Source of the DNA: Skeletonema tropicum
Lineage: Eukaryota > Bacillariophyta > Thalassiosirophyceae > Thalassiosirales > Thalassiosiraceae
NCBI GenBank assembly: GCA_037178625.1
Contig: CM074128.1
Location: 2,728,001 to 2,792,000, forward strand
Direction of reading: 5' to 3'
Length of the DNA: 64,000 nt
The notes under the pieces were generated by a model. The model searched no databases, was not told the origin of the DNA, and saw only the letters and a list, made by a program, of their open reading frames with translations. Of the stretch, positions 1,509 to 62,765 are shown piece by piece (within the stretch, counting starts at the first letter, position 1; each line of letters opens with the position of its first letter). The position numbers were made by a program, and so were the translations under genes.

Positions 1509-4500
1509 ATGGGCGACAACGATGAAGCAGGCGACGATGCATACGCCGTCGAAGACGACTTCCACTCCCTCTACACCACTGACGATTATTTCTCCAACAA
1601 AACGGATCAAAATCAATACGACTACTGGCTCCAAGACGACGACACCGGTGCTTACTACAGCACAGAAACTACAGTCTCCAGCTGGTTTGACAATTTACTA
1701 CGGAACACTACCGCGGATCAAAGGGGCGAGGGCCAGCTCGTGCCCATTGAGGATGTCAATCCCGATAACGTTCTAGCTACGCTCATATTCAACGCCATCG
1801 TATGTGTTATTTTATTGGGGCTTTATGAAATATTGAGACGATTGATCCCCAGCGTGTACAGCCAGAGGATTGTTCATGCACAGAGACGGAGGAGTAATAC
1901 AGACACTTCCAGACTAGAATCTCAGTTTGCTTCCATGAGTAAATCGCATGCGTCCGGGAGTGCAGTTGCGGCTGTTCATAGGCATAAACAAAATGAGGAT
2001 TTGGGGTACAGCGCGATGGCTGACAATAATAATAACATGGACGACAACAGTTCGACTGGGGCAAGCTCTCATGACGAAGAAGAACCTCAATCTGGATGTC
2101 TCCTCGAGATACAGCAATTCTACAACGATCCAAATACATTTAATAGCAAAAAGACTTCTTGGGGATCTCTCTTGGAATGGGTCTATCCCATTTACTCGGC
2201 ACAGTGGTCCACCTTTCGTGATCTAGCTGGACTCGATGCCTACTTCTTTTTGCGGTATATCCGCATGTGTTTCAAAATCACGTCAGTTTCCACCATCTGG
2301 GCGACGATTATCCTATGTCCCGTCTATGCCACGGGGGGTGGGGGACAAACTGGTTTTTATCATTTTAGCATGGCAAATATTGAGCAGGATGATAAGGGGA
2401 GGGTGTGGGTGCCGACTTTCTTTTGTTATGCATTCACACTGTACTGTTGGTTCACCGTAAGGAAGGAGATGACGCATTATGTAAAGTTACGGATGGAGTT
2501 TTTGGGGGGAGATGAAGAGGGGGACACAACTGGAAGAAGCAGCCAAGTTAGTGCGGGGGAGGAAAGGGAAGGTTATGATGCCCCCGCTATTGATACTGCA
2601 GTCCCAACTGACACTAATGATGGGGATACCAACACATCATCATCATCTCTCACTCAAGGGCTACATCATGTTAGATTGTCTCCCTTGAAGCAACATCGAT
2701 ATTCATTATTAGTGGAGAAGATTCCGACGTCACTCCGGTCCAACACCGCCCTCTTCAATTACTTCAATGAAATCTTCCCAGGCCAAGTCCACAGTGCCTG
2801 TATAGCAATGAATGTTCCAGATCTTGACAATCTCTCTGCGCGTAGATTCCGTGTCACCCGACGACTTGAAAAAAGTCTTGCCTATTACAACGTCACGGGG
2901 ATTCGTCCAACTCATATTTCTGGACGACCACGATTCTTCTGTTTGGGTATTGAAAGCACTCCTGTTGATGCCCTTTGTTTGGCGTGCTGTTGCTGTCATG
3001 ACTCCTGTGGGAGTAGTCGGTCTCGTGTACATGATAGCACCTTCAATGATTTTCCTGAGTTTTATGATGAGTTGCCAGGGAAAGGACAACTGGTCGATTC
3101 CATTTCTTACTATATTAAAGACTTGGCACAATGTAACCTGGAAATGCAAAAGTTACAGAAGGAAAAGCTTCGTATTGCACAGGGAGGGGACGACAAACGG
3201 TTGGGATCTACTATGGAATGGTACACTGATACTCTTGTATGGGCCAAACAAAATGCCAAGATTGCTGCTGAAGGCTTGCGTGAAGAATTTGAAGTGCTTA
3301 TGGAGGAGGAAGAGCCTGTTCCTCGTGATCGTGAAACTCTTCCTGTTGACAATAGCACATATGGATCAATGCGATTAGATGGAAACAAAAAGTCCAAAGC
3401 TCCACTAGTCAAACAAGACCACTTGGTAACAGATGGTCTTGACAGTGACTCTTCTGGTGATTCAGATACTACGGTGACATGTACCCCCTGCATCCCTCGC
3501 GAGCGACGTGAATCCAAGGCTTATCAGTGGCTGAGGGCTATGTTGTGGCGTGGAGGGGTTGACTTTTTGGCTGCTGGTCTGGATGAAGTGAGGAACAGTA
3601 CTGACGTTGTCGTTGATAGTATCACATGTCCATCGATGTCCTCCACTGGTTTCGTTACCTTCAAGACACTTACACCTGTGACGGTAGCAACTTCGGTGCC
3701 ACTCACTTATAATCATGACCCTATCGACGTCTGTATTGCCCCTGAATCTAGAGATTTGAAATGGAAGAACGTGTCAGATGACAAAGATATTGGTGCCACT
3801 AGAGAATTTGTGGCAAACATCTTCTTATCGTTAGGTTTACTCTTGTGGTCTATCCCACTTACACTGATTCAAGCTTGGGCCAAAGTGGATAACGTGGCCC
3901 GCATTCCTGGGCTGGAATGGGTCGCAACTGCCCACAATGGAGCATTCAAAGCACTGATCAATGGATACTTGCCCGTTGTGGTTCTCCTTTCCCTTATTTG
4001 TGTGCTTCCTTTTGTCTTCGATGCTATCGCTACACACTATGAGAAACGGAAGACCTTTTCGGGGGTTGAAAGATCCATCGTTGGTCGTTATTTTTACTAC
4101 CAATTGGCAAATATTTACATCACAGTGACAGCTGGTGCACTGTGGACGTCTCTCGGTGCAATCATCGATCATCCGCAACATCTGCTTTTCATTCTAGGCA
4201 ATACACTACCAAAACTTGCGGGATATTTCATTTCCCTATTGCTCACTAAAACATTGGCTGGGTTGCCTATCGTCCTGTTACGTTTCGGTGCGTTGAGTAG
4301 AATGACCTTCTTGAAATCATGTTTCAACAGGAGAAGATTGACCCAACGGGAGCTTGATGAAGTTCACAGAAAGCAGCCGATCTATTACGGATGGGAATAT
4401 CCGACTCAGTTTCTGGCAATCATTGTATGCTTTACCTATGCCTGCATCACGCCATTGATCCTTCCAGTGGGAGCAACGTACTTTTTCTTCGCACAGATTG

Positions 4501-14714: not shown

Positions 14715-16169
14715 GCCATGCCCTTATTCACGACCGTAGATCCAAATCACCCAATTCAAATGCAGCTGGATCGCAGTTGATAGGAATTCTTCCATCCTGC
14801 TCATCTGCGATCTGCCCAGCGCAGGGGTTACAACGCGAAGCACAAAACAAAACCAGAACTTTCTTCATCTTGCATTCCGTATGCCGTCTTCCGTTCGAGA
14901 GCAAATTTTTATTGTACTAATTCCTATGAAGAATTTGCACTTCGCTCCCCCCAAGCGATGAGCTACACTACAGGTCTCGCATCTACGATAGCATTCAGAC
15001 GGTTGATTGGGTCTAAAGAAGTGATGGTAGTGTGGAAGAATGGATGTCAAATGAGTGCGTTTGAAAGTGATGTGTGGTACTAGTATGTACGATTATAGTA
15101 CTTTAAGGTATGTAGAGAGGAATGTCTTCGTAGAAGCTCTAAGATCTCAAGCACCCAAACGGGCCGAACGAAGAGCTCAAAAATAATGCCCGCGTGTCAA
15201 TCTCAACTAGCTTTCTACGCGTGACACGATGATCACCACCCGCCGACCATGGCACGGCACCATTATGCCCTATCGCCGCTGCCAAAATAGAGCAAGTTAA
15301 TCGCCGACCTATGGACTGAGCGGTGGCTAGTCGTTACTATGGATTATTATGTCGGTGGCGAAGCCCTCGCCGCTGCCAAATCCACCGAGGAGAGGCAGAA
15401 TGGTGACGATTTATAACGGCGATTTTCGGCGCTCGCCGGCCACTGAACAGGAGTTATTGAACACCCTGATGACCGTTTCTTCTGCATCCAAGCATAATAA
15501 CATCTTCATAATAGTCCATAGTAACGACTAGCCACCGATCAGCCCATAGGTCTTTGATTAACTTCCTCTATTTTGACAGCGGCCGTGTAGTATTTTTGAG
15601 CTCTTCGTTTGGGTGGTTTGGGTGCTTGAGGAGTTAGAGGTTATCTCGAAGTCTCAGCTCCTACATACGTCAAAGTACATAATCATAGATACCACCTACA
15701 CAAATCACTTGTTTTCACCCCCCTCATCATCCCAAACATACCATCAACCAACCATCGCTGAGTAGAGATAACCGAGACCTGTAGTGTGGATGAGCTTCTC
15801 TTTCTTCCTTCTTTCTCATCGCGCCTGGGTTGGTCCAAAGAAGTTGCCCGCCGCATTACTTGTCCGTCCACGATAGCTGCCCGCTTGGAAATCCGGACAT
15901 GAGAATCCCAGATACTAATAAATGCTTCTTCAGTAATTGCCCGTCCACGATTTTTGCCCGCCCCCATGAGCTTACACTCCCACGGGCAACTTCTGTGGAC
16001 ACTCTGCATTGGCATTGGGAACTGGTGACAACATGGACGGAAGTAAGCCGTGCCGTTGACGACTACTTCTACTCAACAACATCGCATCCACGCTTTGGCT
16101 TCATTGTCGTGCCATAACTTCCACCGTCTCACACCTGATTATTACTGCACGCGCCAGGCCAAGCTAAGT
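14715..16169. other. Intergenic stretch containing a foldback element
   Basis: 1.45 kb without a supported gene. The central third is the inverted-repeat element listed at 15137-15639. Around 15845-15965 the hexamer TGCCCG recurs and a phrase containing CCGTCCACGAT occurs twice (near 15862 and 15942), a small local duplication just upstream of the SET gene. Open frames here are short and shadow the repeat. Confidence 0.4.
15137..15639. repeat. Foldback / MITE-like element with long imperfect inverted repeats
   Basis: The left outer arm (about 15137-15186: CTCTAA, TCAAGCACCCAAAC, AACGAAGAGCTCAAAAATA) is repeated in reverse complement at about 15590-15639. A second arm pair (left ~15288-15352, right ~15498-15580) shares CGGTGGCTAGTCGTTACTATGG. 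The left arm carries an extra ~90 bp not matched on the right, and the unpaired centre is ~145 bp. There is no transposase-sized open frame, so this is non-autonomous. No clear target-site duplication was identified at its edges. Confidence 0.8.
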
Positions 16170-48389: not shown

Positions 48390-51300
48390 ATGAAGAGATT
48401 TTTCCAAAGAAAAGATTCTGGTAGCAACAATAACGGGACTTCATTGGCTCGTGCAGTCGCTGCCTCTCCCTCGGCGGCCCCAACCTCCGCTGCTGCTGCT
48501 GCTGCTGTATCCATACCATCACGCAAACAACGGATGCAGCTACTAAAATCCATAATACACCACGCCGATGCCGTTCAAAAACAATTTCTTGTTCCAAAGC
48601 AAACTCAAAATGACACTAAAAAACAAAGTAAGACCAACAATCTGTTTGGAAATGATGATTCCGCCGAGGTGAACAATAAGTGCTATCAGCGGTGGCATGA
48701 AATTTTACAGGACGGACTTGTTCCGATGTCGGTCCATGCTCTTAATTTACTAGAAAATACAGAGTCATCATCGTCATCAAGCGGTCAAGATGACGAGGAA
48801 GAGGCATATTTTGCAACATTGGAAGGGATGGAACAAGAAATTCAAGTCATGGCGATTTTGGCACGAGCTGCTGCACTAAATGATATTGATCAGGATATCA
48901 ATGAAAAGGATACTGGATGTAGATGTAGTGATGATGTGATGGAACAAATCAATTCGTCAATGAAGTGTATTGCAATGTTATTATTTCATGTAGTGCTAGA
49001 ATCTTCATCGGTGAAATCTGCGAAGTCGGAAAGTGATAATAATGCTTCTTCCGAGGCGATGAACAACACGGTTCCAGGTTATGATGGACGAGTCAGGCAT
49101 GTCATGAAAATGGCATGTGTAGACATATTATCTCGTGCAATTGTATCAAGTGTTGAAGCATACGATCAGAAGAATATGGAAGCAATAGCTTATGAAACCA
49201 AAGAGCAAACACAACAGGCGAAGAATTTCGATTACAGTGATGATTGGAGTGTGGAAAAGATCAAGTCATTTCTAGAGCTGGAAGATCTGGGGAGGGAAGC
49301 TATTTTTGGTACTCCTTGGAAGCCCTGTTCAAAAGATAACAAATTATTAGAGAAGGTTGATCAGGGTAAGGAATCTGATTCTGAATCTGACACAGAGGAT
49401 GAGCACCTCGACTCGGAATCAGAAAATGATGAGATGCAAAAGCAAGCGCCCACTACTGAGCAAACACCGCAAGCATGTGAAGAAGACTCCGATAACACAA
49501 TAGATCAACCAGAGTCAGGTTACCTGGAAACGGAAAGCTGTGATAGCTTGGACGATGATCAGGAAGATAAACACATCAGCGCATACGAAGAGGAATGTCA
49601 GAATGTGGATCTCCCATCGAAAAGATGGTTGAACGCAAAGTTTTTAGCAACGCGAAAGTATGAGCTAATTGAACGTCTTGTTGCGATCGACATCGTTCGA
49701 TTCCTCATCGCAGAAGAACGGGAGAAGAAGCTACGTGACCAAAAGTTAGAAGAACAGAAGAAAAAACTACCCAAGCTGCCTGTGTTTTTAAGAAATAGTA
49801 TTTTGGAGGAAGGTGATGATCTTGGAAAAACGCAAGATGGTGAAGCTGATGAACCAAATGATGAGCAAGATCTAGATGAGAATGTTAATTCTTCTCGGTA
49901 CTTCAATGCCTCTCGGATACAGCGCATCAAACGCGGTGCAAAGATTGCTACCGCTGGACTTGCGATTGGTACTGTGTTTGCGATTACGGGGGGCCTCGCG
50001 GCACCAGCTCTTGCGGCCGGAATTGGTGGTATAGCTGCGTTGACAGGAGCAACAACTGCGACGTCTACAGCCATGCTCGCTGTTTTGGCAACGTTTAAAG
50101 CTGGAGCATTATTGTTTGGAGCTGGTGGTGGAGGCATCGCAGCTTACAAGATGAAGAAGAGAACAGCCGGTCTATCACAATTCGAAGTGCGCCGAGAAAA
50201 CATTGAGCAGTACATGTATCCGGGGGCGTCTGAAGAAAAGATGAAGAGAGGGATCGCCGCAATGCTTCCCCAACTCCACACTACTGTTGCCGTAACAGGA
50301 TGGCTTCGAGAGAATGATGCTGCGGACTTTCAGCTCGCTTGGGGATGTCAACCAACTAATAGGTATGAACAAGCCGACGATTTCAAACTTCGCATACGGC
50401 AGCTGAGGCGTTTCTACTCCATTTACAATCCACCGTTGGTACCTTTATGCGAGGATTTTATGCTAACCCTAAAGTCCCGGTTGAAGAAAGACTTTAGCTG
50501 GGACCGAATATGGATACAACTCGAGAACAAATACGGCGCAAATCCGGATCATATGATCCCTCTTGATACGCCTCGGGAGAACGAAGTCTTCCTTTCGAGT
50601 GATGAGAAGGCAATGATTGATGGTGTTCTAAATACCGCCAGGGTGTCAAATCTTGCCAAGAAAGGTTTGGGTGCAGGTGAAGCGTTTGAGTTCAACGAGA
50701 ACGACGAAATCGCTGATTTGCTCACTCAAGCGACAACAGTAAGTGAAGCTGCGGTGAAAAAGTCAGTCAATAGCGAAGTTGATATTGAATCGAGCACAAT
50801 GGAGAACGAATTAGATGACTCTATAACTTGCATAGATGAGTATCAGCAAAATCAGCAAATGGGTGGTAGTGAATTATCAACTGACGCGTCGGAAGACAGG
50901 GTACAATCTTTGCAGGAAAGAATGTCCAGGCAGAGGGATAATCAAGTTTTGTTTCTGAAGGAAAAGGGCTTGATTCGGGATGATACCGAGACGAAGCAAG
51001 GCGCGGGGGAAGATGATGAGAAAGACGAAGACACAAAAGCAGACGATGAAGGAGATGAAGATTACAGCGAGAGCCCCTACAGCGACGGCCGGTGCCCTGT
51101 CATATGGGACTGGAACAGACTATATGCAACTGACATTCACACAGTCACTTGGGAGAGCAAAATGTTGAGCTCATTATGTCACATCGTTGAGAATATGGCT
51201 ATTGAAGTATCAACCCAAGCTACAAAAGTTGCGCTTCAGTATTCTGTCATCGGCGCGATCGTATCTGCAGTAGCCATTCCTTCAGCTCTGTTGACGGCAA

Positions 51301-51881
51301 CCAAGCTTATCGATGACCCATATCAAATTGTTATCCTCCGCGCTGACGAGGCTGGACGAGAACTGGCGAAGTGCTTGCTCCAAAGCGATGAACGCAGACC
51401 TGTTTCGTTGATCGGATTTTCATTCGGGGCGCGAGTTATCTATTCATGCTTGCGAGAACTAGCCGCTCAGCAAGACATCTGGGAAGAAACCCGTTTTCCC
51501 AAAGCCGATGACAATAATGAAGGAAGGAAAAGCAAGACGTTTGGGAAGAAGAAAGCCTCTGTTAGATTTGAATACGATCGAGAGCCAGCATCACTCATAG
51601 CAGATGTGATTTTCATTGGCCTCCCTAGAGTGATTGAGAAGAAAGTGTTGACATCATGTCGACGTGTCACCGGTGGGCGGCTTGTTAATTGTTATACGAA
51701 GAATGATTGGTTACTGTCGCTCATGTTTATGGCAAGAGCTGGTATACCTGCTGGAATAAGAGAGGTGCGGGGTGTACCAGGTGTGGAGAATTTTGATGTA
51801 ACACAATTCGTCGAGTCTCACACCAAATATGCCGATGCAATACCAAGTATCTTGCAGCATGTGAGGTTTTCTGAGCCTTAG
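48390..51881 (+). CDS. TMCO4 / DUF726-family protein (alpha/beta-hydrolase-like)
   Basis: 1,163 residues, single exon. Residues 1-500 are low-complexity (Ala run encoded by GCT repeats; long Asp/Glu segments). From residue ~510 a hydrophobic Gly/Ala-rich pair of helices (GTVFAITGGLAAPALAAGIGG) matches the DUF726 membrane region. It is followed by LHTTVAVTGWLRENDAADFQ, and near residue 1010 VSLIGFSFGARVIYSCLREL with a nucleophile-elbow-like GFSFG. VIFIGLPRVI and GGRLVNCYTKNDWLLSLMF complete the hydrolase-like core. Members are membrane-associated; some yeast and plant relatives act in Golgi or lipid metabolism. The last 13 codons lie inside the 3,573-bp duplicated stretch, so a copy of this 3' end reappears at 58102 after the retrotransposon. 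Confidence 0.82.
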   Translation: MKRFFQRKDSGSNNNGTSLARAVAASPSAAPTSAAAAAAVSIPSRKQRMQLLKSIIHHADAVQKQFLVPKQTQNDTKKQSKTNNLFGNDDSAEVNNKCYQRWHEILQDGLVPMSVHALNLLENTESSSSSSGQDDEEEAYFATLEGMEQEIQVMAILARAAALNDIDQDINEKDTGCRCSDDVMEQINSSMKCIAMLLFHVVLESSSVKSAKSESDNNASSEAMNNTVPGYDGRVRHVMKMACVDILSRAIVSSVEAYDQKNMEAIAYETKEQTQQAKNFDYSDDWSVEKIKSFLELEDLGREAIFGTPWKPCSKDNKLLEKVDQGKESDSESDTEDEHLDSESENDEMQKQAPTTEQTPQACEEDSDNTIDQPESGYLETESCDSLDDDQEDKHISAYEEECQNVDLPSKRWLNAKFLATRKYELIERLVAIDIVRFLIAEEREKKLRDQKLEEQKKKLPKLPVFLRNSILEEGDDLGKTQDGEADEPNDEQDLDENVNSSRYFNASRIQRIKRGAKIATAGLAIGTVFAITGGLAAPALAAGIGGIAALTGATTATSTAMLAVLATFKAGALLFGAGGGGIAAYKMKKRTAGLSQFEVRRENIEQYMYPGASEEKMKRGIAAMLPQLHTTVAVTGWLRENDAADFQLAWGCQPTNRYEQADDFKLRIRQLRRFYSIYNPPLVPLCEDFMLTLKSRLKKDFSWDRIWIQLENKYGANPDHMIPLDTPRENEVFLSSDEKAMIDGVLNTARVSNLAKKGLGAGEAFEFNENDEIADLLTQATTVSEAAVKKSVNSEVDIESSTMENELDDSITCIDEYQQNQQMGGSELSTDASEDRVQSLQERMSRQRDNQVLFLKEKGLIRDDTETKQGAGEDDEKDEDTKADDEGDEDYSESPYSDGRCPVIWDWNRLYATDIHTVTWESKMLSSLCHIVENMAIEVSTQATKVALQYSVIGAIVSAVAIPSALLTATKLIDDPYQIVILRADEAGRELAKCLLQSDERRPVSLIGFSFGARVIYSCLRELAAQQDIWEETRFPKADDNNEGRKSKTFGKKKASVRFEYDREPASLIADVIFIGLPRVIEKKVLTSCRRVTGGRLVNCYTKNDWLLSLMFMARAGIPAGIREVRGVPGVENFDVTQFVESHTKYADAIPSILQHVRFSEP

Positions 51882-52067
51882 CATTCACTAAGATATGACA
51901 CTCACATGCACAATTAGGTAGTTTAGGGGGAAATTACACTTGTATTGTAGATTGTAGTATTGAATAGATGATAGAACAGAACGATTGTGTTTAGTTCTAG
52001 AATTCACTACTTATGTATAAATTATCAATAGATTACTCAAGTCAACTCTGTGGACGTTTTCGTCGAG

Positions 52068-52408
52068 ATGTCGCGCTTAGTCAACAAAATATGGCAATTC
52101 GTCAATCCGAGTGGCAGGGGACAATAATTATCGTGAAGTCCCGTCAGACCAAGCATTCTCGGTTGATAAATTAGCAAAGTATGAAAGTGAGCTCATCGCG
52201 AGGCTGACCAACACATGTGTTGGATCTGGATGCGGAGGTGGTATATGCATGGAGCCTCGTCAAGCCTTGGTCATCTTTTCACCATGCACAGTTGTGCACA
52301 GTTGCGGCCGGCCTCGTCGTTATCGGACCTCTTATCTGGGTGTGGCTGCATATCGGCGAAAGGATGGTGCTGAATGGTCATCATCTGCAGGGGGTGTCGA
52401 CGAAGTAA
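52068..52408 (+). CDS. Small single-helix membrane protein, copy 1 (two +1 frame breaks)
   Basis: A reading starting MSRLVNKIWQFVNPSGR at 52068 passes by a +1 step near 52118 into NNYREVPSDQAFSVDKLAKYESELIARLTNTC. A second +1 step at 52195-52240 leads into a clear transmembrane helix (HAQLCTVAAGLVVIGPLIWVWL) and a short tail ending GVSTK at 52408. This gives about 112 residues and looks more like a protein than any of the three single frames. It is duplicated identically at 58329-58669. Family unknown. The hypothesis depends on accepting the same kind of frame step seen in conserved genes of this window. Confidence 0.4.
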
Positions 52409-52707
52409 CCCCAACCCTGGTTAGGGCCGGACTTGCAATAAGTTTGACGAGGGATGCTAGTCTCTGATGCATGTCCGCCAAGAGCAGAAAGATTACTCAT
52501 GCATCGGCTCCTTGAAAGACCGCATGCCTGACTCTTGGAGATGCAGGAGGAAGCAGACTCCACGCTTGAGTAAGAACCATCATCACGGAACGAAGTCAAG
52601 CTAGCGGGCGGGAAAGAGGAAGCATCGTACGAGGATTCATCAAAGGAGATGCTCATCATGCTCGCGGCGATCATGCCGACAGGAGTAGAAACGTAGTTAG
52701 TGTTCAT
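52381..52707 (-). CDS. Hypothetical 108-aa Ser-rich protein, copy 1
   Basis: A clean ATG-started frame encoding a Ser/Ala-rich protein (MNTNYVSTPVGMIAASMMSI, then EASSC and SRSRCMSNLSALGG motifs), possibly Ser/Thr-phosphorylated. It overlaps the tail of the small membrane-protein gene by 28 bp on the opposite strand. Repeated exactly at 58642-58968. No family recognised; it could be non-coding. Confidence 0.3.
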   Translation of the reverse strand: MNTNYVSTPVGMIAASMMSISFDESSYDASSFPPASLTSFRDDGSYSSVESASSCISKSQACGLSRSRCMSNLSALGGHASETSIPRQTYCKSGPNQGWGYFVDTPCR

Positions 52708-52860
52708 ATTCTTTTGTTTGATGTGATATGATGTAATTAATTATTATGGGGACTTCATGCACACTTGTTGCGGAGTTGTAGCCTGTCAAAGCATGGATGT
52801 GGAGTGGTGTGAGTATCAATCTTAGGCCTCGATCCTTGACACTTTTGAGGAAGCGTTTCC

Positions 52861-53362
52861 ACCACCTCAGCGACATATGACATTCGACGGCGAATTGATG
52901 TATTGATTCCTCAATATTCATTCGTGATGCGACAGGATCAAGGTCAATTGTGAATATTGTAGAAGGAAACATTGCAGTTGAGGACGTGTACGTGGTCAAT
53001 ATTTTCACCACCTCAGCAGATATGACATTCGACGGCGAACTGAAGTATTGATTCCTCAATATTCATTCGTGATGCGACAGGATCAAGGTCAATTGTGAAT
53101 ATTGTAGAAGGAAACATTGCAGTTGAGGACGTGTACGTGGTCAATATTCTACCACCGACACGACACGGGAGGCTAAACGGAGAAGTAGGTTTGGCTTCTT
53201 TTCACCACCTCAGCAGATATGACATTCGACGGCGAACTGAAGTATTGATTCCTCAATTCTCATTCGTGATGCGACAGGATCAAGGTCAATTGTGAATATT
53301 GTAGAAGGAAACATTGCAGTTGAGGACATGTGATGGGTCATATTCTACCATAGCGACACGGA
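52861..53362. repeat. Three tandem ~146-bp units, copy 1
   Basis: Units start at 52861, 53007 and 53204, each opening ACCACCTCAGC and running through ATTCGTGATGCGACAGGATC to TGAGGACGTGTACGTGG. Unit 2 has about 50 extra bp at its end (TACCACCGACACGACACGGG) and unit 3 ends in a diverged form. Units differ by a few substitutions, so the array predates the large duplication, which carries it unchanged (59122-59623). It lies just left of the DNA transposon; function unknown. Confidence 0.85.
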
Positions 53363-53873
53363 GAATGAAGTCAGAAGTCACAAGTCAGAAGTCATAGTAC
53401 ATAGTTAGGCAGAGTATGTATATACTCCTATTTACATATAAGTACTACTTACCTAAGTACTTAAATAAGCTTCCACGGTCGGCCCACGTGGGCCAAGGTA
53501 CAAAGGGCTGCCAGTAACTAAATTTAACCCTTTAGCCCCCGGTACAAACCCTCCATTTTTGCACAGATTTGGGTTTGTGCAACTTTTTGCTCCAAACCCA
53601 CCGAACACAAAACATCAACCATGTCGTCACCTACTGTATGCGTATGCACGGCAAACTATCCACCAAAAAACAGCAACGAGCGATGCCGCTGTTAATTATC
53701 ATGACTGGCTGTGCATCGGCAACAATTTTTATGGCATAGTTGAGTTATTATTATTAAATATTCATGCAGAAGCTGAGTGCCCGGATCTCCCGACACATCA
53801 ACACATAATCGGTTCGTCTTCTCTTCGACACTCTACGGCAACAAAAACAGAAGAAAAGAATAATAATGACGAC

Positions 53874-54683
53874 TTAATTTAGCGGCATTAGCGGCCTACA
53901 AATATTTACATTGGCGTGTCCCCAATGGTTCATGGCATCCAACATGCCGTAAAATGAAGCCGGGATGACATCCTTCAACCCATCGCTATCCGTCACTCGA
54001 GAAAATGCAACCTCGCACGTGTACCTCAACTTGCAGATGGTCCTATCAGCAGACACCTCCTCGGCGGTGAATTGGCCGCGACCACTCAAGAATTTGGGGG
54101 TGATTTGCCTGTTCATATTGGGATAGTATCGTGCTGTGTCCCAAAAGCCTCGATCCGATAGCATCACCCATCCTGGTGGACACTTCCTCAGCCGTGGTCC
54201 CCACAGCTCAACGAGCGCCTTCTCTGATACACGAGCAAGAAATAAATTAGTGTGCTCAAAACTTAAACCCATTGGCGTGCACCATGAAATGCAACGCACT
54301 GCACTAGCGTGGACTTTGTCAGAATAGCACGCGCGAGTGAAGAGTGTATTCTTCCGTGGAGTAAATATCTTCAAGTCTTTGCCGTCAGGTATTGCACAAA
54401 CATTGTCGAGACCTTCATCCTTGAATGCTTGAGGACAAGTTGCTTTAAGGAATTCCTCAGTTATATCAAGAATAGAGAGATCTTCTCCTGCTTCGCCCCA
54501 TCTATCAACCCACCACTTCACTCTATCTGCAACATGAGAGTTCTCTGCGTTCAGCCCAAGGATGTATGCAATGGTTCGATAGGACATCCCACAGTTGATT
54601 CTCATCTTTGCCGCAAGGCACCATTCAAACGAGGTCACTGGATCATCTAGTGATGGCAGCAAAGCGAGATGATGGAGAGTCAT
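53874..54683 (-). CDS. DDE transposase (DDE_Tnp_4-like), copy 1
   Basis: 269 codons in one frame, identical to 60135-60944. The acidic triad is in the expected setting: AIPDGKDLKIF (first Asp, followed by TRACYSDKVHASAVRCISW), VMLSDRGFWDTARYYP (second Asp) and CEVAFSRVTD (Glu). This pattern fits DDE_Tnp_4 transposases of the Harbinger/ISL2EU type. A 43-codon basic frame starting MKTRSNQYNSPKRRVRGEKR at 54774 overlaps it in the neighbouring frame and joins it by a +1 step, supplying a nuclear-localisation-like N-terminus. The helix-rich N-terminal part (YRTIAYILGLNAENSHVADRV) may be the DNA-binding domain. Confidence 0.78.
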   Translation of the reverse strand: MTLHHLALLPSLDDPVTSFEWCLAAKMRINCGMSYRTIAYILGLNAENSHVADRVKWWVDRWGEAGEDLSILDITEEFLKATCPQAFKDEGLDNVCAIPDGKDLKIFTPRKNTLFTRACYSDKVHASAVRCISWCTPMGLSFEHTNLFLARVSEKALVELWGPRLRKCPPGWVMLSDRGFWDTARYYPNMNRQITPKFLSGRGQFTAEEVSADRTICKLRYTCEVAFSRVTDSDGLKDVIPASFYGMLDAMNHWGHANVNICRPLMPLN

Positions 54684-55007
54684 CTGAAGGCTTTTTGGAT
54701 GGCGAGTTCTTCTGCCTCTTCTCTCCGCGGACTCTCCTCTTTGGACTATTGTACTGATTGCTACGAGTCTTCATATTGATTTTTATGACCAGAATGAGAA
54801 TACAGAATATTGAACGGAATGGTTTGAAATGCGAGTATGAACGAATAGATCACAAAATTTGGCCATGAAATATTGGACGCTACATTTTTCTGCGCTTTGC
54901 AGCAGATACAGACAAAGGAGTGAAGATGCGTTGCATAATTTAGCAGTAGTAACATAAATGCCATCATGGGCTAGCCGCTTGTACCACTATCGTTACCAAA
55001 AGACCCA

Positions 55008-55413
55008 TTGGACACAACTCGTAACCTCCCACCGAACTCAGAGATATATTTCAAGGACTGCCCGATTGGAATACTGCCACAGAATGTTTTGTTGGATTGG
55101 ATGGTTTATCATGGAGTACCTATGCCGAAGGGAACTTCAAGATTGTCTCTCATCAAGCAAGTGCGACTAGCATACGAGAACAAGCAGCCATTGGACCGAG
55201 AGCGCATCAGCCTCAACGAAGCCGTAAAGACAAAGTCTTACATTTCCTGGGAGACGATGGCAGGTGTCTCAGAAGTGAGATGGAATAATCACAATCTATT
55301 TTACTACAATTCATCCGAAGTGTAGTCCCAACTGTGAACAGCAAATACATTGACGAAATCTTTGGAACTGGAATGAATGGAATTCGTGAACGATCGTGGT
55401 TGAGATTTGTGAG
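55008..55413 (+). pseudogene. SAP-SWIM transposon protein, truncated by retrotransposon insertion
   Basis: This is the 5' half of the gene seen complete at 61269-62606: the SAP-like helix-turn-helix, the intron (55264-55325 here) and the start of exon 2. At 55413 the sequence passes into the retrotransposon, and the frame then runs ~45 unrelated codons to a stop. The SWIM zinc finger and the acidic tail are lost. Confidence 0.75.
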
Positions 55414-57816
55414 TGGGCTACATGGCTTGGATGCGCACAACCGGATTATGCCAAAATCCGAGCCCTCAACCACGTGCGTCTGCTTGCAGTGGATAAGGAG
55501 CCCGGAGTCCGCCCTTTGGGCTGTGGTGAAATCTGGATGCGGCTGATCTCTGGAACAATCCTTGAACAGTGCAAAGAGCGAGCGCGGGACGCCTGCAACA
55601 ACGTCCAACTCTGTGCTGGACTTCAGGCGGGCATTGAAGGTGCAACTCATGCCATTCTGGAAGTATTTCCAGAATTGGGTGGGTGGCTGAACATGCGAAG
55701 AGCGGCGAATAAGCCGGAGACGGAGATCAGAGATGGAGACGACGGAGGTGATGGAGATGGGCCAGATGATAGTGAGATGGAGAGTTCAAGTCAGAATGAA
55801 GAGCCACCGGCGGATGCCTCAACTGAGGAGGCGAGCTCTGACCCAACACCCCCACCCTTCCCTGAATATCCCATCCAACCTGACACGGAAAACTCGCACT
55901 ACATCCCAGAGAGTGGCTATGGCCTCCTCCTAGTGGATGCTCGCAATGCTTTCAATGAACTCAATCGATACAACATGTTGTGGGAGGTATACCATCGATG
56001 CCCCCCACTCGCAAAGATAGCTTTCAACCGCTATCGACACCATAGCCTTTGCTTTATGCGGAATGAAATGGGAGAAGACCCTACTGTCATTGCGTGCAAG
56101 GAGGGCATCACGCAGGGGTGCTGCCTGTCTATGGTGTGCTATGGCATCGCCCTGATGCCACTAGCGGAATGGTTAAGGGAAAAAGTCCCTGGAGCTCTCC
56201 AACCTTGGTATGCTGATGATCTCGGCGGTGTCGGTACTGCACTCGATAACGCTACTATGCTTCAGCTTCTCAAAGAAAGGGGGCCCTATGTTGGATACTA
56301 TCCCGAACCAGATAAATCCCACTACATTTGTATGCCGCAAGATGAGGATGCTGCACGAGCAGCCTTTGAAGCGGCTGGCATCTCGGAACTGAATTATGGA
56401 CGCCACCACCGATACCTTGGTGGAGTGTATGGTGATGCAGCTGAGAAGGAGGAGTGGGTCAAGAAGAAAGTGGAACAGTGGGTATATTGCGTGGAAGTCC
56501 TTGGCAAATGTGCCTACACACAACCCCAGGCAGCCTATGCAGGTTTTGTACTGTCTCTTCAGAATGAATGGACATACTTATCGCGCATTGTGCCAAACGT
56601 GGGGCCCCTTCTTGCTCCGATTGAGGTTGCCATTAGAGAGAAATTTATCCCACCTCTCTTTGGCATCTCCCCTTCGGAATTATCTGGAGAGTTGCGTCAC
56701 CTGCTTTCCCTTAGTGTGAAACATGCAGGCTTAGCAATCCGGTTCCCTGTGGAACAATCTGAGGATTGCTTCAAAACGTCGCGACAAGCGGTGGAACACC
56801 TGGTTGAAACGCTGGTCAATCGTCGGGAACTGTGTTTTTCGAAAACCCACCAGTACTCAGCTATGATGGCTAAAATTGGATCGCAGGAAGCGAAGAAGCT
56901 TGATGCTGAGTACCATCTCACCCAGTGGGGGAGAGAGAAACCAGGTGATAAGAGGAGGTTGGAACGGATCTGTGAGACTGGATGTTGGCTGACGGCTGTC
57001 CCAAACCGCCTCAATGGCACGATCCTATCGGCTGAAGAGTTTCGAGACAACGTACGTCTCCGGTACAACCTGAAGCCGATGGATTTGTCAGACCTATGCG
57101 ATGGATGTGGTGCAAAAATGACGGTGGAACATGCTCTCCAATGCAAGGTGGGCGGTCTCGTCCATTGCCGCCACAATGATGTTACGAGAGAATTTGGCTC
57201 CTTGTGCAAGCAAGCCTTTACTCCCGGTGACGTTGAGTACGAACCCTTTATCTACACTAGTACTCAACGCACTGCTGCAGAGGCAGAGGCTGCTGCCGCA
57301 GCAGAGGCTGAAAATACCACGCAACAACACAACGCAACTGATGGGTCGACCCCAGTGACAACAACGGAAGAGCGTGGAGATGTGATGGTCTCCCACTTCT
57401 GGAAGAGACAGCGTCGAACTGTCTTTGACACTCGCATCACCGACGCGGACTGCCGCTCCTACCGCAACAAGGCGCCTTCGGCTGTCTTGAGGCAACAAGA
57501 GAGGGAGAAAATCCGCAAGTACAAGGCAGCTTGTCTTGAACGACGTCGGGACTTCACCCCCCTCTGCTTCACGGCTGATGGAATGCCAGGTAGAGAGGCC
57601 TTGAATGCGATGCGTCAACTGGGTACACACTTAGCTGAAAAGTGGGAGCGTCAGCGTAGCCAGATGATATTCTATGTGCGGGTACGCATGTCCCTTGCCC
57701 TAGTCCGGGCAAACTCCCTCCTGCTCAGAGGGAGTAGGGACAGGCACCACCGCATCCGGCCACTCATTGAGAATGGGCCGGGGATGTCCAACTGGCACAC
57801 CTGGAGTGGGGAGTAA
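55414..57816 (+). CDS. Reverse transcriptase / putative REL endonuclease polyprotein, N-terminus missing
   Basis: The 800 codons inside the element are open, with no proper start. RT motifs in order: RLLAVDKEPGVRPLGCGEIW, GLQAGIEGATHAI, LLLVDARNAFNELNR (motif A Asp), EGITQGCCLSM (motif B), PWYADDLGG (catalytic YADD at 56209-56220) and RHHRYLGGVYG. An acidic low-complexity insert precedes motif A. After the thumb comes a Cys/His cluster (LCDGCGAKMTVEHALQC...HCRHNDVTREFG, near 57095-57190). The C-terminus, RGDVMVSHFWKRQ...FDTRITD...EREKIRKYKAAC, has the Asp-Asp-Lys spacing of a PD-(D/E)xK restriction-like endonuclease, as in R2/NeSL-type elements. The nuclease assignment is inference. No frame break or stop occurs, so the insertion is probably young. 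Confidence 0.85.
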   Translation, partial: WATWLGCAQPDYAKIRALNHVRLLAVDKEPGVRPLGCGEIWMRLISGTILEQCKERARDACNNVQLCAGLQAGIEGATHAILEVFPELGGWLNMRRAANKPETEIRDGDDGGDGDGPDDSEMESSSQNEEPPADASTEEASSDPTPPPFPEYPIQPDTENSHYIPESGYGLLLVDARNAFNELNRYNMLWEVYHRCPPLAKIAFNRYRHHSLCFMRNEMGEDPTVIACKEGITQGCCLSMVCYGIALMPLAEWLREKVPGALQPWYADDLGGVGTALDNATMLQLLKERGPYVGYYPEPDKSHYICMPQDEDAARAAFEAAGISELNYGRHHRYLGGVYGDAAEKEEWVKKKVEQWVYCVEVLGKCAYTQPQAAYAGFVLSLQNEWTYLSRIVPNVGPLLAPIEVAIREKFIPPLFGISPSELSGELRHLLSLSVKHAGLAIRFPVEQSEDCFKTSRQAVEHLVETLVNRRELCFSKTHQYSAMMAKIGSQEAKKLDAEYHLTQWGREKPGDKRRLERICETGCWLTAVPNRLNGTILSAEEFRDNVRLRYNLKPMDLSDLCDGCGAKMTVEHALQCKVGGLVHCRHNDVTREFGSLCKQAFTPGDVEYEPFIYTSTQRTAAEAEAAAAAEAENTTQQHNATDGSTPVTTTEERGDVMVSHFWKRQRRTVFDTRITDADCRSYRNKAPSAVLRQQEREKIRKYKAACLERRRDFTPLCFTADGMPGREALNAMRQLGTHLAEKWERQRSQMIFYVRVRMSLALVRANSLLLRGSRDRHHRIRPLIENGPGMSNWHTWSGE

Positions 57817-57830
57817 TCCCCTCTCCCCCA

Positions 57831-58025
57831 CCTCTGCGGTGGCAGAGGTTGAGTGAGGACTCTCACTCTCACCTGTCGAGAGGCAGTTGAGAGTAGGAGG
57901 GAGGAGGAACATACCATCACCTAGCACAGGTGACAAGAGGAGTGCGGACTTGCCACTGAACTAGAGATACCTAGACTGCACTCCTCTTATTACCTAAAAT
58001 GGGCAAGTTCAGATCCAGCTTGCCC
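57831..58025 (+). promoter_or_regulatory. Structured 3' UTR of the retrotransposon
   Basis: Three perfect stems: CCTCTGC/GCAGAGG (57831-57837 with 57842-57848), AGAGGAGTGC/GCACTCCTCT (57936-57945 with 57978-57987) and GGGCAAG/CTTGCCC (58001-58007 with 58019-58025). Such hairpins near a poly(A) tail are the usual recognition site for the element's own RT; that role is inferred. Confidence 0.6.
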
Positions 58026-58328
58026 AGTAAACAGCTCCTGAATACCATCCTAAACTAATCACTTATTTATCTTGTGAAAAAAAAAAAAAAAAAAAAAAAA
58101 ATACCAAGTATCTTGCAGCATGTGAGGTTTTCTGAGCCTTAGCATTCACTAAGATATGACACTCACATGCACAATTAGGTAGTTTAGGGGGAAATTACAC
58201 TTGTATTGTAGATTGTAGTATTGAATAGATGATAGAACAGAACGATTGTGTTTAGTTCTAGAATTCACTACTTATGTATAAATTATCAATAGATTACTCA
58301 AGTCAACTCTGTGGACGTTTTCGTCGAG

Positions 58329-58669
58329 ATGTCGCGCTTAGTCAACAAAATATGGCAATTCGTCAATCCGAGTGGCAGGGGACAATAATTATCGTGAAGT
58401 CCCGTCAGACCAAGCATTCTCGGTTGATAAATTAGCAAAGTATGAAAGTGAGCTCATCGCGAGGCTGACCAACACATGTGTTGGATCTGGATGCGGAGGT
58501 GGTATATGCATGGAGCCTCGTCAAGCCTTGGTCATCTTTTCACCATGCACAGTTGTGCACAGTTGCGGCCGGCCTCGTCGTTATCGGACCTCTTATCTGG
58601 GTGTGGCTGCATATCGGCGAAAGGATGGTGCTGAATGGTCATCATCTGCAGGGGGTGTCGACGAAGTAA
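58329..58669 (+). CDS. Small single-helix membrane protein, copy 2
   Basis: Identical to the gene at 52068-52408, including both positions where a +1 step is needed. Its upstream region now begins only ~230 bp after the retrotransposon tail, so its promoter may be incomplete compared with copy 1 if control elements lie in the TMCO4-like coding region. Confidence 0.4.
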
Positions 58670-58968
58670 CCCCAACCCTGGTTAGGGCCGGACTTGCAAT
58701 AAGTTTGACGAGGGATGCTAGTCTCTGATGCATGTCCGCCAAGAGCAGAAAGATTACTCATGCATCGGCTCCTTGAAAGACCGCATGCCTGACTCTTGGA
58801 GATGCAGGAGGAAGCAGACTCCACGCTTGAGTAAGAACCATCATCACGGAACGAAGTCAAGCTAGCGGGCGGGAAAGAGGAAGCATCGTACGAGGATTCA
58901 TCAAAGGAGATGCTCATCATGCTCGCGGCGATCATGCCGACAGGAGTAGAAACGTAGTTAGTGTTCAT
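58642..58968 (-). CDS. Hypothetical 108-aa Ser-rich protein, copy 2
   Basis: Exact repeat of the frame at 52381-52707; the same caveats apply. No family recognised. Confidence 0.3.
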   Translation of the reverse strand: MNTNYVSTPVGMIAASMMSISFDESSYDASSFPPASLTSFRDDGSYSSVESASSCISKSQACGLSRSRCMSNLSALGGHASETSIPRQTYCKSGPNQGWGYFVDTPCR

Positions 58969-59121
58969 ATTCTTTTGTTTGATGTGATATGATGTAATTA
59001 ATTATTATGGGGACTTCATGCACACTTGTTGCGGAGTTGTAGCCTGTCAAAGCATGGATGTGGAGTGGTGTGAGTATCAATCTTAGGCCTCGATCCTTGA
59101 CACTTTTGAGGAAGCGTTTCC

Positions 59122-59623
59122 ACCACCTCAGCGACATATGACATTCGACGGCGAATTGATGTATTGATTCCTCAATATTCATTCGTGATGCGACAGGATC
59201 AAGGTCAATTGTGAATATTGTAGAAGGAAACATTGCAGTTGAGGACGTGTACGTGGTCAATATTTTCACCACCTCAGCAGATATGACATTCGACGGCGAA
59301 CTGAAGTATTGATTCCTCAATATTCATTCGTGATGCGACAGGATCAAGGTCAATTGTGAATATTGTAGAAGGAAACATTGCAGTTGAGGACGTGTACGTG
59401 GTCAATATTCTACCACCGACACGACACGGGAGGCTAAACGGAGAAGTAGGTTTGGCTTCTTTTCACCACCTCAGCAGATATGACATTCGACGGCGAACTG
59501 AAGTATTGATTCCTCAATTCTCATTCGTGATGCGACAGGATCAAGGTCAATTGTGAATATTGTAGAAGGAAACATTGCAGTTGAGGACATGTGATGGGTC
59601 ATATTCTACCATAGCGACACGGA
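59122..59623. repeat. Three tandem ~146-bp units, copy 2
   Basis: Same array as 52861-53362, shifted by 6,261 bp, with units starting at 59122, 59268 and 59465. The internal differences between units are the same in both copies. Confidence 0.85.
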
Positions 59624-60134
59624 GAATGAAGTCAGAAGTCACAAGTCAGAAGTCATAGTACATAGTTAGGCAGAGTATGTATATACTCCTATTTACATAT
59701 AAGTACTACTTACCTAAGTACTTAAATAAGCTTCCACGGTCGGCCCACGTGGGCCAAGGTACAAAGGGCTGCCAGTAACTAAATTTAACCCTTTAGCCCC
59801 CGGTACAAACCCTCCATTTTTGCACAGATTTGGGTTTGTGCAACTTTTTGCTCCAAACCCACCGAACACAAAACATCAACCATGTCGTCACCTACTGTAT
59901 GCGTATGCACGGCAAACTATCCACCAAAAAACAGCAACGAGCGATGCCGCTGTTAATTATCATGACTGGCTGTGCATCGGCAACAATTTTTATGGCATAG
60001 TTGAGTTATTATTATTAAATATTCATGCAGAAGCTGAGTGCCCGGATCTCCCGACACATCAACACATAATCGGTTCGTCTTCTCTTCGACACTCTACGGC
60101 AACAAAAACAGAAGAAAAGAATAATAATGACGAC

Positions 60135-60944
60135 TTAATTTAGCGGCATTAGCGGCCTACAAATATTTACATTGGCGTGTCCCCAATGGTTCATGGCATC
60201 CAACATGCCGTAAAATGAAGCCGGGATGACATCCTTCAACCCATCGCTATCCGTCACTCGAGAAAATGCAACCTCGCACGTGTACCTCAACTTGCAGATG
60301 GTCCTATCAGCAGACACCTCCTCGGCGGTGAATTGGCCGCGACCACTCAAGAATTTGGGGGTGATTTGCCTGTTCATATTGGGATAGTATCGTGCTGTGT
60401 CCCAAAAGCCTCGATCCGATAGCATCACCCATCCTGGTGGACACTTCCTCAGCCGTGGTCCCCACAGCTCAACGAGCGCCTTCTCTGATACACGAGCAAG
60501 AAATAAATTAGTGTGCTCAAAACTTAAACCCATTGGCGTGCACCATGAAATGCAACGCACTGCACTAGCGTGGACTTTGTCAGAATAGCACGCGCGAGTG
60601 AAGAGTGTATTCTTCCGTGGAGTAAATATCTTCAAGTCTTTGCCGTCAGGTATTGCACAAACATTGTCGAGACCTTCATCCTTGAATGCTTGAGGACAAG
60701 TTGCTTTAAGGAATTCCTCAGTTATATCAAGAATAGAGAGATCTTCTCCTGCTTCGCCCCATCTATCAACCCACCACTTCACTCTATCTGCAACATGAGA
60801 GTTCTCTGCGTTCAGCCCAAGGATGTATGCAATGGTTCGATAGGACATCCCACAGTTGATTCTCATCTTTGCCGCAAGGCACCATTCAAACGAGGTCACT
60901 GGATCATCTAGTGATGGCAGCAAAGCGAGATGATGGAGAGTCAT
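60135..60944 (-). CDS. DDE transposase (DDE_Tnp_4-like), copy 2 in the complete element
   Basis: Identical to copy 1. The likely full gene begins at the ATG at 61035 with a Lys/Arg-rich leader (NSPKRRVRGEKRQKNSPSKK) and enters the long frame by a +1 step between about 60955 and 60905. Alternatively translation starts at the ATG at 60944 and the leader is separate. With both terminal inverted repeats and an intact catalytic triad, this copy could still be active, provided the leader is not required or the frame step is real or an error. Confidence 0.8.
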   Translation of the reverse strand: MTLHHLALLPSLDDPVTSFEWCLAAKMRINCGMSYRTIAYILGLNAENSHVADRVKWWVDRWGEAGEDLSILDITEEFLKATCPQAFKDEGLDNVCAIPDGKDLKIFTPRKNTLFTRACYSDKVHASAVRCISWCTPMGLSFEHTNLFLARVSEKALVELWGPRLRKCPPGWVMLSDRGFWDTARYYPNMNRQITPKFLSGRGQFTAEEVSADRTICKLRYTCEVAFSRVTDSDGLKDVIPASFYGMLDAMNHWGHANVNICRPLMPLN

Positions 60945-61268
60945 CTGAAGGCTTTTTGGATGGCGAGTTCTTCTGCCTCTTCTCTCCGCGGACTCTCCTC
61001 TTTGGACTATTGTACTGATTGCTACGAGTCTTCATATTGATTTTTATGACCAGAATGAGAATACAGAATATTGAACGGAATGGTTTGAAATGCGAGTATG
61101 AACGAATAGATCACAAAATTTGGCCATGAAATATTGGACGCTACATTTTTCTGCGCTTTGCAGCAGATACAGACAAAGGAGTGAAGATGCGTTGCATAAT
61201 TTAGCAGTAGTAACATAAATGCCATCATGGGCTAGCCGCTTGTACCACTATCGTTACCAAAAGACCCA

Positions 61269-62606
61269 TTGGACACAACTCGTAACCTCCCACCGAACTC
61301 AGAGATATATTTCAAGGACTGCCCGATTGGAATACTGCCACAGAATGTTTTGTTGGATTGGATGGTTTATCATGGAGTACCTATGCCGAAGGGAACTTCA
61401 AGATTGTCTCTCATCAAGCAAGTGCGACTAGCATACGAGAACAAGCAGCCATTGGACCGAGAGCGCATCAGCCTCAACGAAGCCGTAAAGACAAAGTCTT
61501 ACATTTCCTGGGAGACGATGGCAGGTGTCTCAGAAGTGAGATGGAATAATCACAATCTATTTTACTACAATTCATCCGAAGTGTAGTCCCAACTGTGAAC
61601 AGCAAATACATTGACGAAATCTTTGGAACTGGAATGAATGGAATTCGTGAACGATCGTGGTTGAGATTTGTGAGCGGCAGCTTAGATATTCAATCACTTA
61701 CATTGGGTACTGCCAAGGTAGACGGACAAGATGAACCAATCCAAATTTTGCGGATTAAATGTACACCAAGCATGAAGAGTGAAGTGTACGATGTGTCACT
61801 TTCATTCAAACCCGACGGCAGTGTTGTTGTGTATCTCCCGGAGAAATCACAATGCGATTGTCCTAACGGTTGGTTATTTTGCAGTCATTCCCTTGCCTTC
61901 TTCATTCTAATCCGTCTTGTTGCAAATTAAAAAGGATTGGTGTTTTGCTGATTTGTGCAAATACATGCCTCCTCCGATAAAATCATTGCAGAATCTACCA
62001 CTGGCAGCAGCAAATGTCCTGAAGAGTGAAAAGAGCGCCTCAAAAGCCATTGGGAAGGCAATAGCCAAGGAGGTTAGGGGGTATTCGGCCAAGAAGGATA
62101 GCGACGAAAGTGCAGCAGATGATGAGATGGCGGCTTTACAGAGCGACCTGAAGGCAGGGAGAGATGTAAAGAGTATTGATTTGTGCCAGAGATTGGATGA
62201 TCATCTGCAACAGAGCAAAGAAACAAAGGCGACCGACGGTGAGATCAATAGTAGAAATGTGCAGGTTCGTGATGCGGCGACTAAGACTAAATCTTCCCGG
62301 GTGACAGCGGATGACATCCATAAATTCAACCGTGATGTCGTGCACAAAACGCTGCCTCCTAAACGCCAATACGTGAAGCTTGTCCGCCATAAGTGCCTCC
62401 AAGAAATGATGGACGATAAGTTGATTGACGACGATAATGCTTTGAGTCATTACCTCCGATTCTTCTCTGACGATCGCAATGAAGACTTGCGTCAGAAGCA
62501 TCAACAACGTGATGATGTGTGTGGAAACTATGATAAAGAATTTCTTCTGGACAAATATTTTGATAGTGACAACGATAGTGATGATGACGATGACGGTGCC
62601 TCCTAA
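61269..62606 (+). CDS. SAP-like plus SWIM zinc-finger protein of the DNA transposon
   Basis: Exon 1 ends at 61524, the intron is 61525-61586 (62 bp, GTGTCT to GTGTAG), and exon 2 follows. Exon 1 has a SAP-like DNA-binding motif (PQNVLLDWMVYHGVPMPKGTSRLSLIKQVRLAYENK). Exon 2 has a SWIM finger, CDCPNGWLFCSHSLAF (CxC...CxH). A +1 step near 61913 leads into KKDWCFADLCKYMPPP and a charged C-terminal region ending in an Asp/Ser run. The start is uncertain: the frame opens after a stop at 61233 with no ATG before the SAP motif, and the ATG at 61219 is in another frame. SWIM proteins bind DNA or partners and occur as accessory proteins in several eukaryotic DNA transposons. Role here inferred. Confidence 0.66.
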
Positions 62607-62765
62607 ATTTTATTAATATCATGCTTGTTTTGTTGTTTGATTGCGTAGTATGGGATGGTGACAACATGCGGCAGCTTCATGATCTTCGTGTGTTGATGGC
62701 CAAAAAAATCCTCAAACCCAAATCTGTGCAATCCGGGCGCGCCATTTCCACCGTGGAAGCTTATT

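Follow-up and report, generated by a model that had tools for sequence, protein, structure and literature searches.

Kilobase target-site duplications as a probable and recurrent outcome of LINE insertion in the diatom Skeletonema tropicum

A 64,000-nucleotide stretch of the Skeletonema tropicum genome (assembly GCA_037178625.1, contig CM074128.1, positions 2,728,001 to 2,792,000 of the forward strand; hereafter the window) carries a long interspersed nuclear element (LINE) between two identical direct repeats of 3,573 bp. Comparison with related copies elsewhere in the genome indicates that this is very probably a genuine insertion of a non-long-terminal-repeat (non-LTR) retrotransposon with a kilobase target-site duplication, and that members of this LINE family, the longer copies especially, commonly produce duplications of this kind. 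The process is best read as ordinary target-primed reverse transcription in which the second junction often lies kilobases away. LINE relatives usually duplicate about ten to twenty target bases. Support at the level of sequence comes from repeat borders that coincide with the LINE 5′ end and with its 3′ end or poly(A) tail, from repeats that start with A or AA, and from the recurrence of the pattern at independent loci with differing lengths.

In the window, direct comparison of positions 51841–55413 with positions 58102–61674 (both + strand), the first and second copies of the target-site duplication, found no mismatch in 3,573 bases, as an earlier sequence-only reading of this DNA had described. 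The 2,688 bp between them (55414–58101, + strand) are, again as described there, a LINE with a 5′ truncation whose last 25 nucleotides are A (58077–58101). That reading also placed the repeat borders exactly at the 5′ end of the element and at its poly(A) tail, which we confirm with an uncertainty of 3 bp at the 5′ border, because GAG closes the repeat and also precedes the same point in longer LINE copies. The identity extends leftward by 2 nt (AA), which cannot be told from the poly(A) tail, and rightward by 0 nt. A direct-repeat scan of the window (seed 20, minimum 60 nt) returned only one other family, a minisatellite with a unit of about 142–145 nt that belongs to the 3,573-bp repeat; the match therefore stands clear of the background. 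The minisatellite copies (52857–53340 and 59118–59601) lie within the duplicated stretch and adjoin a DNA transposon.

The arrangement that preceded the insertion can be read from the sequences that the LINE interrupts. The left border of the repeat falls within the last 41 bp of an open reading frame (48390–51881, + strand) that reads across the border and encodes a DUF726 protein of 1,163 amino acids (Pfam DUF726, E 1.1e-68); by position within the repeat, the end of this frame recurs at 58102–58142 (+ strand). Repeat positions 1625–3573 recur genome-wide and correspond to a PIF/Harbinger-like DNA transposon, of which the copy at 53465–55413 is interrupted by the LINE and the copy at 59726–62764 is uninterrupted, its right end being approximate and its continuity given by contiguous matches in other copies, e.g., L034. 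The class of the transposon is borne out by a transposase frame at 53874–54683 (− strand; DDE_Tnp_4, E 7.2e-06, 26.1 bits against a cut-off of 24.8), with an identical second copy, by position in the repeat, at 60135–60944 (− strand). Seven other copies of the transposon (L033, L034, L035, L041, L047, L048 and L054) show the unduplicated order, in which the end of the repeat continues into position 61675; these empty sites are paralogous copies of the transposon and not an empty allele of the window locus. As all seven are uninterrupted at the border, the ancestral order was therefore left flank, repeat, right flank. On this comparison, it is evidently the insertion event that duplicated 3.57 kb and left the LINE at the joint. 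The earlier suggestion of a route that duplicates whole genes holds only in part here: the copied stretch comprises the last 41 bp of the DUF726 frame and a partial DNA transposon, including its transposase frame, and contains no whole host gene.

The same pattern recurs across the family. We searched the genome (G000, 78.4 Mb in 125 contigs, denoted by C-numbers) and listed 41 places that match the LINE at 97–100% identity, the best 40 of 392 first-look candidates having been scored. For each listed place the flanks were compared directly where flank sequence had been retrieved, short left- and right-flank segments were searched in the genome, and a long duplication was scored where the second copy of a flank lay on the same contig, on the same strand and at the right distance. 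These coordinate searches cover the best 40 candidates each, so that second copies may be missed at repetitive flanks and several known self-matches went unlisted. The 41 places were sorted into 13 with repeats on both sides, four with one-sided evidence, two with short duplications, eight with none and 14 that were not judged, the latter because of repetitive or satellite flanks (L008, C48:5304, C23:405123 and C8:1540599), membership in two arrays on C13 (L022–L026), a missing or rearranged 3′ end (L017, C10:2455194, C23:145651 and C33:121394) or, for C6:2066080, being a fragment of L019.

At the 13 two-sided places, the flanking repeats begin and end at the LINE ends, and the duplications measure about 2–6.5 kb at ten of them and 839, 134 and about 58 bp at the others. 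Besides the window (3,573 bp), these places include L004 (4,395 bp left/4,401 bp right), L013 (2,959/2,960 bp), L021 (839 bp), L027 (134 bp) and C15:1621831 (57–59 bp). A few loci carry extra bases between the repeat and the recognised LINE start, namely about 30 at L003 (5,662/6,180 bp; the repeat pair is 98.7% identical over 544 bp), two at L006 (4,787/4,781 bp) and 16 at L011 (2,004/1,987 bp), and the right copy at L005 (3,238/3,236 bp) is unread over its last 9 bp or so. The lengths at L007 (2,689/2,689 bp) and L014 (9,909/6,531 bp) rest on the coordinates of matches of about 100 nt, as does the right end at L015 (3,031/3,030 bp); at L007, three separate 100-nt segments give the equal-length duplication alike. 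Small differences between left and right lengths partly reflect the number of A's assigned to the tail. The sequence-only reading had called for such a family survey and had named, as the outcome that would undo its interpretation, a window mis-join among family members with uniformly short duplications; this did not occur, and insertion with a kilobase target-site duplication is supported by the 13 two-sided loci out of 41, ten of them with duplications of kilobase size. The survey also bears on the possibility of an assembly error in which one true copy was written twice. The window copies are 100% identical in the assembly, as such an error would have them, but nine further contigs, with 12 of the listed places between them, show the pattern too, and the two copies are not always identical: at L003, L011 and L014 they are set apart by substitutions or indels. 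This makes the explanation extremely improbable.

The remaining places are more varied. Four places offer evidence on one side. At L012, two segments of the right flank have second copies 10,615 bp upstream, but another, taken 1.4 kb into the flank, is listed once, and the left flank is repetitive. At L030, a second copy of the right flank lies 5,034 bp upstream of the LINE start, but the left flank is a repeat that is missing from the expected place. At L010, the evidence is a right-flank segment, located 1.4 kb in, that has a second copy 12,950 bp upstream. At L009, the left flank recurs 5.9 kb downstream, but the matching left-copy start is not where it would be expected. The duplication is 5–8 bp at L029 and 13 bp at L020, the latter inside a tandem array. 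Among the matches listed, neither flank has a second copy at L018, L028, C1:2201213 and C18:1763139, and the right flank has none at L002, L016, L019 and C73:177924, where the left flanks are repetitive; the right flank of L016 is partly repeated 0.2 kb further downstream. The left flank of L002 is a dispersed repeat that also forms an array: it recurs three more times upstream (C8:286091-299167) with a spacing of 4,317–4,324 bp, as well as at many other places. Outside the 41 places, a 464-bp LINE piece in another Harbinger-like transposon copy (L033, 3443–3906) has a duplication of 6–9 bp, and a 134-bp LINE piece (L047) has no flanking repeat in the sequence compared.

Several of these results weigh against kilobase duplication as a common outcome. 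Eight of the 41 listed places have no duplication and two a short one, and L002, L016 and L019 are long LINE copies without duplication; a further 14 could not be judged and four are one-sided only. The list consists of best matches, and long copies are thus over-represented in it; when six more 3′ ends were examined in the order of the listing, the right flank had a single entry at two (L102 and L104), and the other four could not be scored. The survey covers one LINE family of this genome, and the case rests on the assembled sequence and on paralogous empty sites. The weakest of the 13 two-sided loci is L006, where a third copy of the stretch lies nearby (at about C21:730234-735822) with an 89% paralogue adjoining, so that an older array is possible there. 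The whole of this region (C21:711457-735822) holds three copies of a stretch of about 4.8–5.6 kb, with the LINE between two of them, in addition to the paralogue. Generalised to the family, the alternative would be that the LINE landed, with a short duplication or none, between the copies of an older tandem duplication, and look-alikes of this kind are possible in repeat arrays such as those in which L008, L020 and C48:5304 sit. At loci with a single repeat pair (e.g., the window, L004, L013 and L021), however, both borders meet the LINE ends to the base, as a chance insertion would not, and for the window the other transposon copies show the unduplicated order; we consider this alternative very improbable. 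A further candidate, that the flanking repeats are long terminal repeats, is unlikely, as the repeats vary from locus to locus.

Arrays of LINE and flank were encountered as well. Two of them, in opposite orientation on the same contig (C13:2023692-2033197 and C13:2728883-2746105; L022–L026), alternate flank and LINE (flank-LINE-flank-LINE) with a spacing of about 4.66–4.75 kb and flanks of about 2.4–2.5 kb, one being about 5.5 kb. In one array the leftmost flank copy has the same starting base, and the list shows no exact LINE 3′ end ahead of it; the left-flank end did not reappear in the final flank copy of either array. Such arrays might have arisen by unequal exchange between long duplications. 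Two LINE 3′ ends 4,540 bp apart with a common right flank (C1:990327 and C1:994867; L105 and L106) are probably another array.

The start of the repeats carries a signature. It could be read in 12 left copies (window, L003, L004, L005, L006, L012, L013, L015, L021, L027, L030 and C15:1621831); all 12 begin with A, and 10 of them with AA. These A's are also readable as tail, yet the left copy has them too, and no tail adjoins it; they are what priming by a T-ended strand on poly(A) would leave. A nick in the bottom strand would expose a primer with a T end, and the element RNA would be reverse transcribed from it. In place of a second nick close by, the far end of the complementary DNA (cDNA) would then meet a nick or break some 0.1–6.5 kb downstream, either in the other strand or in the sister chromatid, and be joined there, and the intervening stretch would be retained on both sides and filled in.

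The length of the duplication tends to go with that of the element. Over 23 scored copies, LINE length and duplication length are correlated (Spearman 0.64; 13 of 20,000 shuffles equally high), and duplications of at least 1 kb occur in 10 of 12 copies with a LINE of at least 2.6 kb versus 0 of 11 shorter copies, the 2.6-kb cut-off having been set after the data were seen and the lengths entered by hand. The 23 comprise the 13 two-sided loci, the short duplications at L020, L029 and L033, and the copies without duplication L018, L028, C1:2201213, C18:1763139, L002, L016 and C73:177924; outside them stand the one-sided L009, L010, L012 and L030, the L047 piece, and L019, an interrupted and older copy (97%). 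Among long copies the count would be 10 of 13 if L019 were added, or 9 of 11 if L006 were dropped. Within the 13 two-sided loci the correlation is weak (0.38, p 0.19), and it is 0.58 when L012 and L030 are added to the 23, L030 then being a short LINE copy with a long duplication.

The sequence-only reading had offered cleavage of the two strands kilobases apart, long strand displacement with fill-in, or two independent breaks as candidate routes, and these data favour none of the three over the others. Two ways of making the distant joint deserve weighing. It is quite possible that the joint is linked to replication: a fork would meet the nick, and the broken sister, carrying the cDNA end, would be linked to the other sister at a point kilobases behind, either by joining or by a template switch at a microhomology, leaving a tandem duplication with the LINE at its joint. 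Among long LINE copies duplications exceed all other outcomes, the 5′ joint in the window has 3 bp of microhomology, and a like proposal has been made for an L1-bridged duplication in a tumour (PMC7058536). Yet there is no direct sign of replication, 3 bp of microhomology at a single joint is weak, and a few joints instead carry extra bases, from 2 to about 30. Alternatively, and we entertain this more tentatively, the event may take place on the same duplex, the second strand being nicked, or already nicked, kilobases downstream and the strands between peeled apart and filled in. A distal, unrelated nick is what the authors of PMC5223499 propose for large L1 duplications in cells deficient in nucleotide excision repair (NER), and a longer cDNA, hence more time, accompanies a longer duplication here. 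Against this, up to 6.5 kb of duplex would have to separate, an activity not seen in these data, and among the 29 XPD-deficient L1 insertions tabulated in that source, insert size and duplication length are uncorrelated (Spearman 0.19, p 0.34).

The LINE family itself has structural hallmarks of a non-LTR retrotransposon, with copies that are truncated at differing 5′ points and are poly(A)-tailed. It has no terminal repeats of its own, the flanking repeats being locus-specific and the window insert containing no repeat of at least 60 nt. A 27-nt pattern from the LINE 3′ end occurs 236 times in the genome with at most two mismatches, and of the copies measured the longest, L003 at about 4,985 bp, has a stop-to-stop frame of 1,522 codons. 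In the window, the reading frame from the first ATG (55537–57816, + strand; 759 amino acids) contains, by eye, a YADD reverse-transcriptase box, a CxxC-H-C motif and RGD...D...K-like residues, which suggest a restriction-like-endonuclease LINE. The order of reverse-transcriptase box, CCHC-like motif and C-terminal endonuclease-like residues resembles, by eye, that of R2/R4-type LINEs; in contrast, there is no profile or fold match to that group. Pfam at E 0.001 gave no family for the window frame, and for the L003 LINE it gave RVT_1 at E 0.088 (12.9 bits, under the cut-off of 29.6), in a match that spans the YADD box, with no APE-type endonuclease family in the output. A PDB sequence search with the LINE protein gave no match, and structure models of the protein are poor (pLDDT 45 and 38). 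Rfam and tRNA scans of the window and searches of phage records and viral contigs returned nothing useful. Elsewhere in the window lies an inverted repeat of 77 nt (15275–15351 and 15507–15583; 90% complementary, 155 nt apart).

The sequence-only reading also held that LINE target duplications are usually under about 20 bp and rarely reach hundreds, and here the literature requires a correction, as kilobase precedents exist for human L1 in NER-deficient cells (PMC5223499) and in a tumour (PMC7058536). In PMC5223499, duplications range from a few bp to 6,765 bp and exceed 1 kb in 10 of 29 XPD-deficient insertions (Table 1), and exceed 1.5 kb in 2 of 17 insertions in the complemented line. The likeness lies in 5′-truncated, poly(A)-bearing LINE insertions with large duplications, with few large deletions in the L1 set; that phenotype is tied to repair-deficient cultured cells, whereas here the family is resident in a genome that keeps homologues of Rad4 (E 5.5e-7) and Rad10 (E 6.6e-39). 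With both homologues present, loss of NER through absence of either is an unlikely cause. In the tumour, as described in PMC7058536, an L1 bridges a tandem duplication and likewise sits at its joint, but the event is somatic and spans 22.6 Mb, whereas the duplications described here are of kilobase size and recur within a single LINE family resident in the genome. R2/R4-type LINEs, as summarised in PMC6895275, delete or duplicate between a few and about 20 bp, apart from R9 of bdelloid rotifers, a LINE whose 126-bp target-site duplication is called exceptional (cited in PMC6895275). R9 shares the long duplication with the family described here, but its duplication is 126 bp at a ribosomal DNA (rDNA) site, whereas ours vary in length between about 58 bp and 6.5 kb and their sites are dispersed. 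The fixed rDNA-site pattern of R9 is not shared, and the Rfam scan shows no rRNA family in the window. No account of a resident family of LINEs that makes kilobase duplications turned up in our literature search, which was thin on subscription journals. The outcome of LINE insertion described here is real, repeated and unusual.

The final stage of LINE integration, and in particular the cutting and joining of the second strand, is called very poorly understood (PMC6895275). The near-identical copies in this one genome, with duplications from about 58 bp to 6.5 kb, make the second-strand question testable by counting. One far-reaching proposal, which we think rather unlikely as a whole, is that a resident LINE family in a host keeping Rad4 and Rad10 regularly finishes integration by a replication-linked or sister-chromatid joint and not by local second-strand cleavage, that duplication length would follow the time taken by cDNA synthesis, and that each long insertion would be a gene-sized tandem duplication able to grow into arrays. 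Overall, retrotransposition is a possible route to tandem duplication of neighbouring DNA, up to gene-sized stretches, and the arrays on C13 suggest that such duplications can expand.

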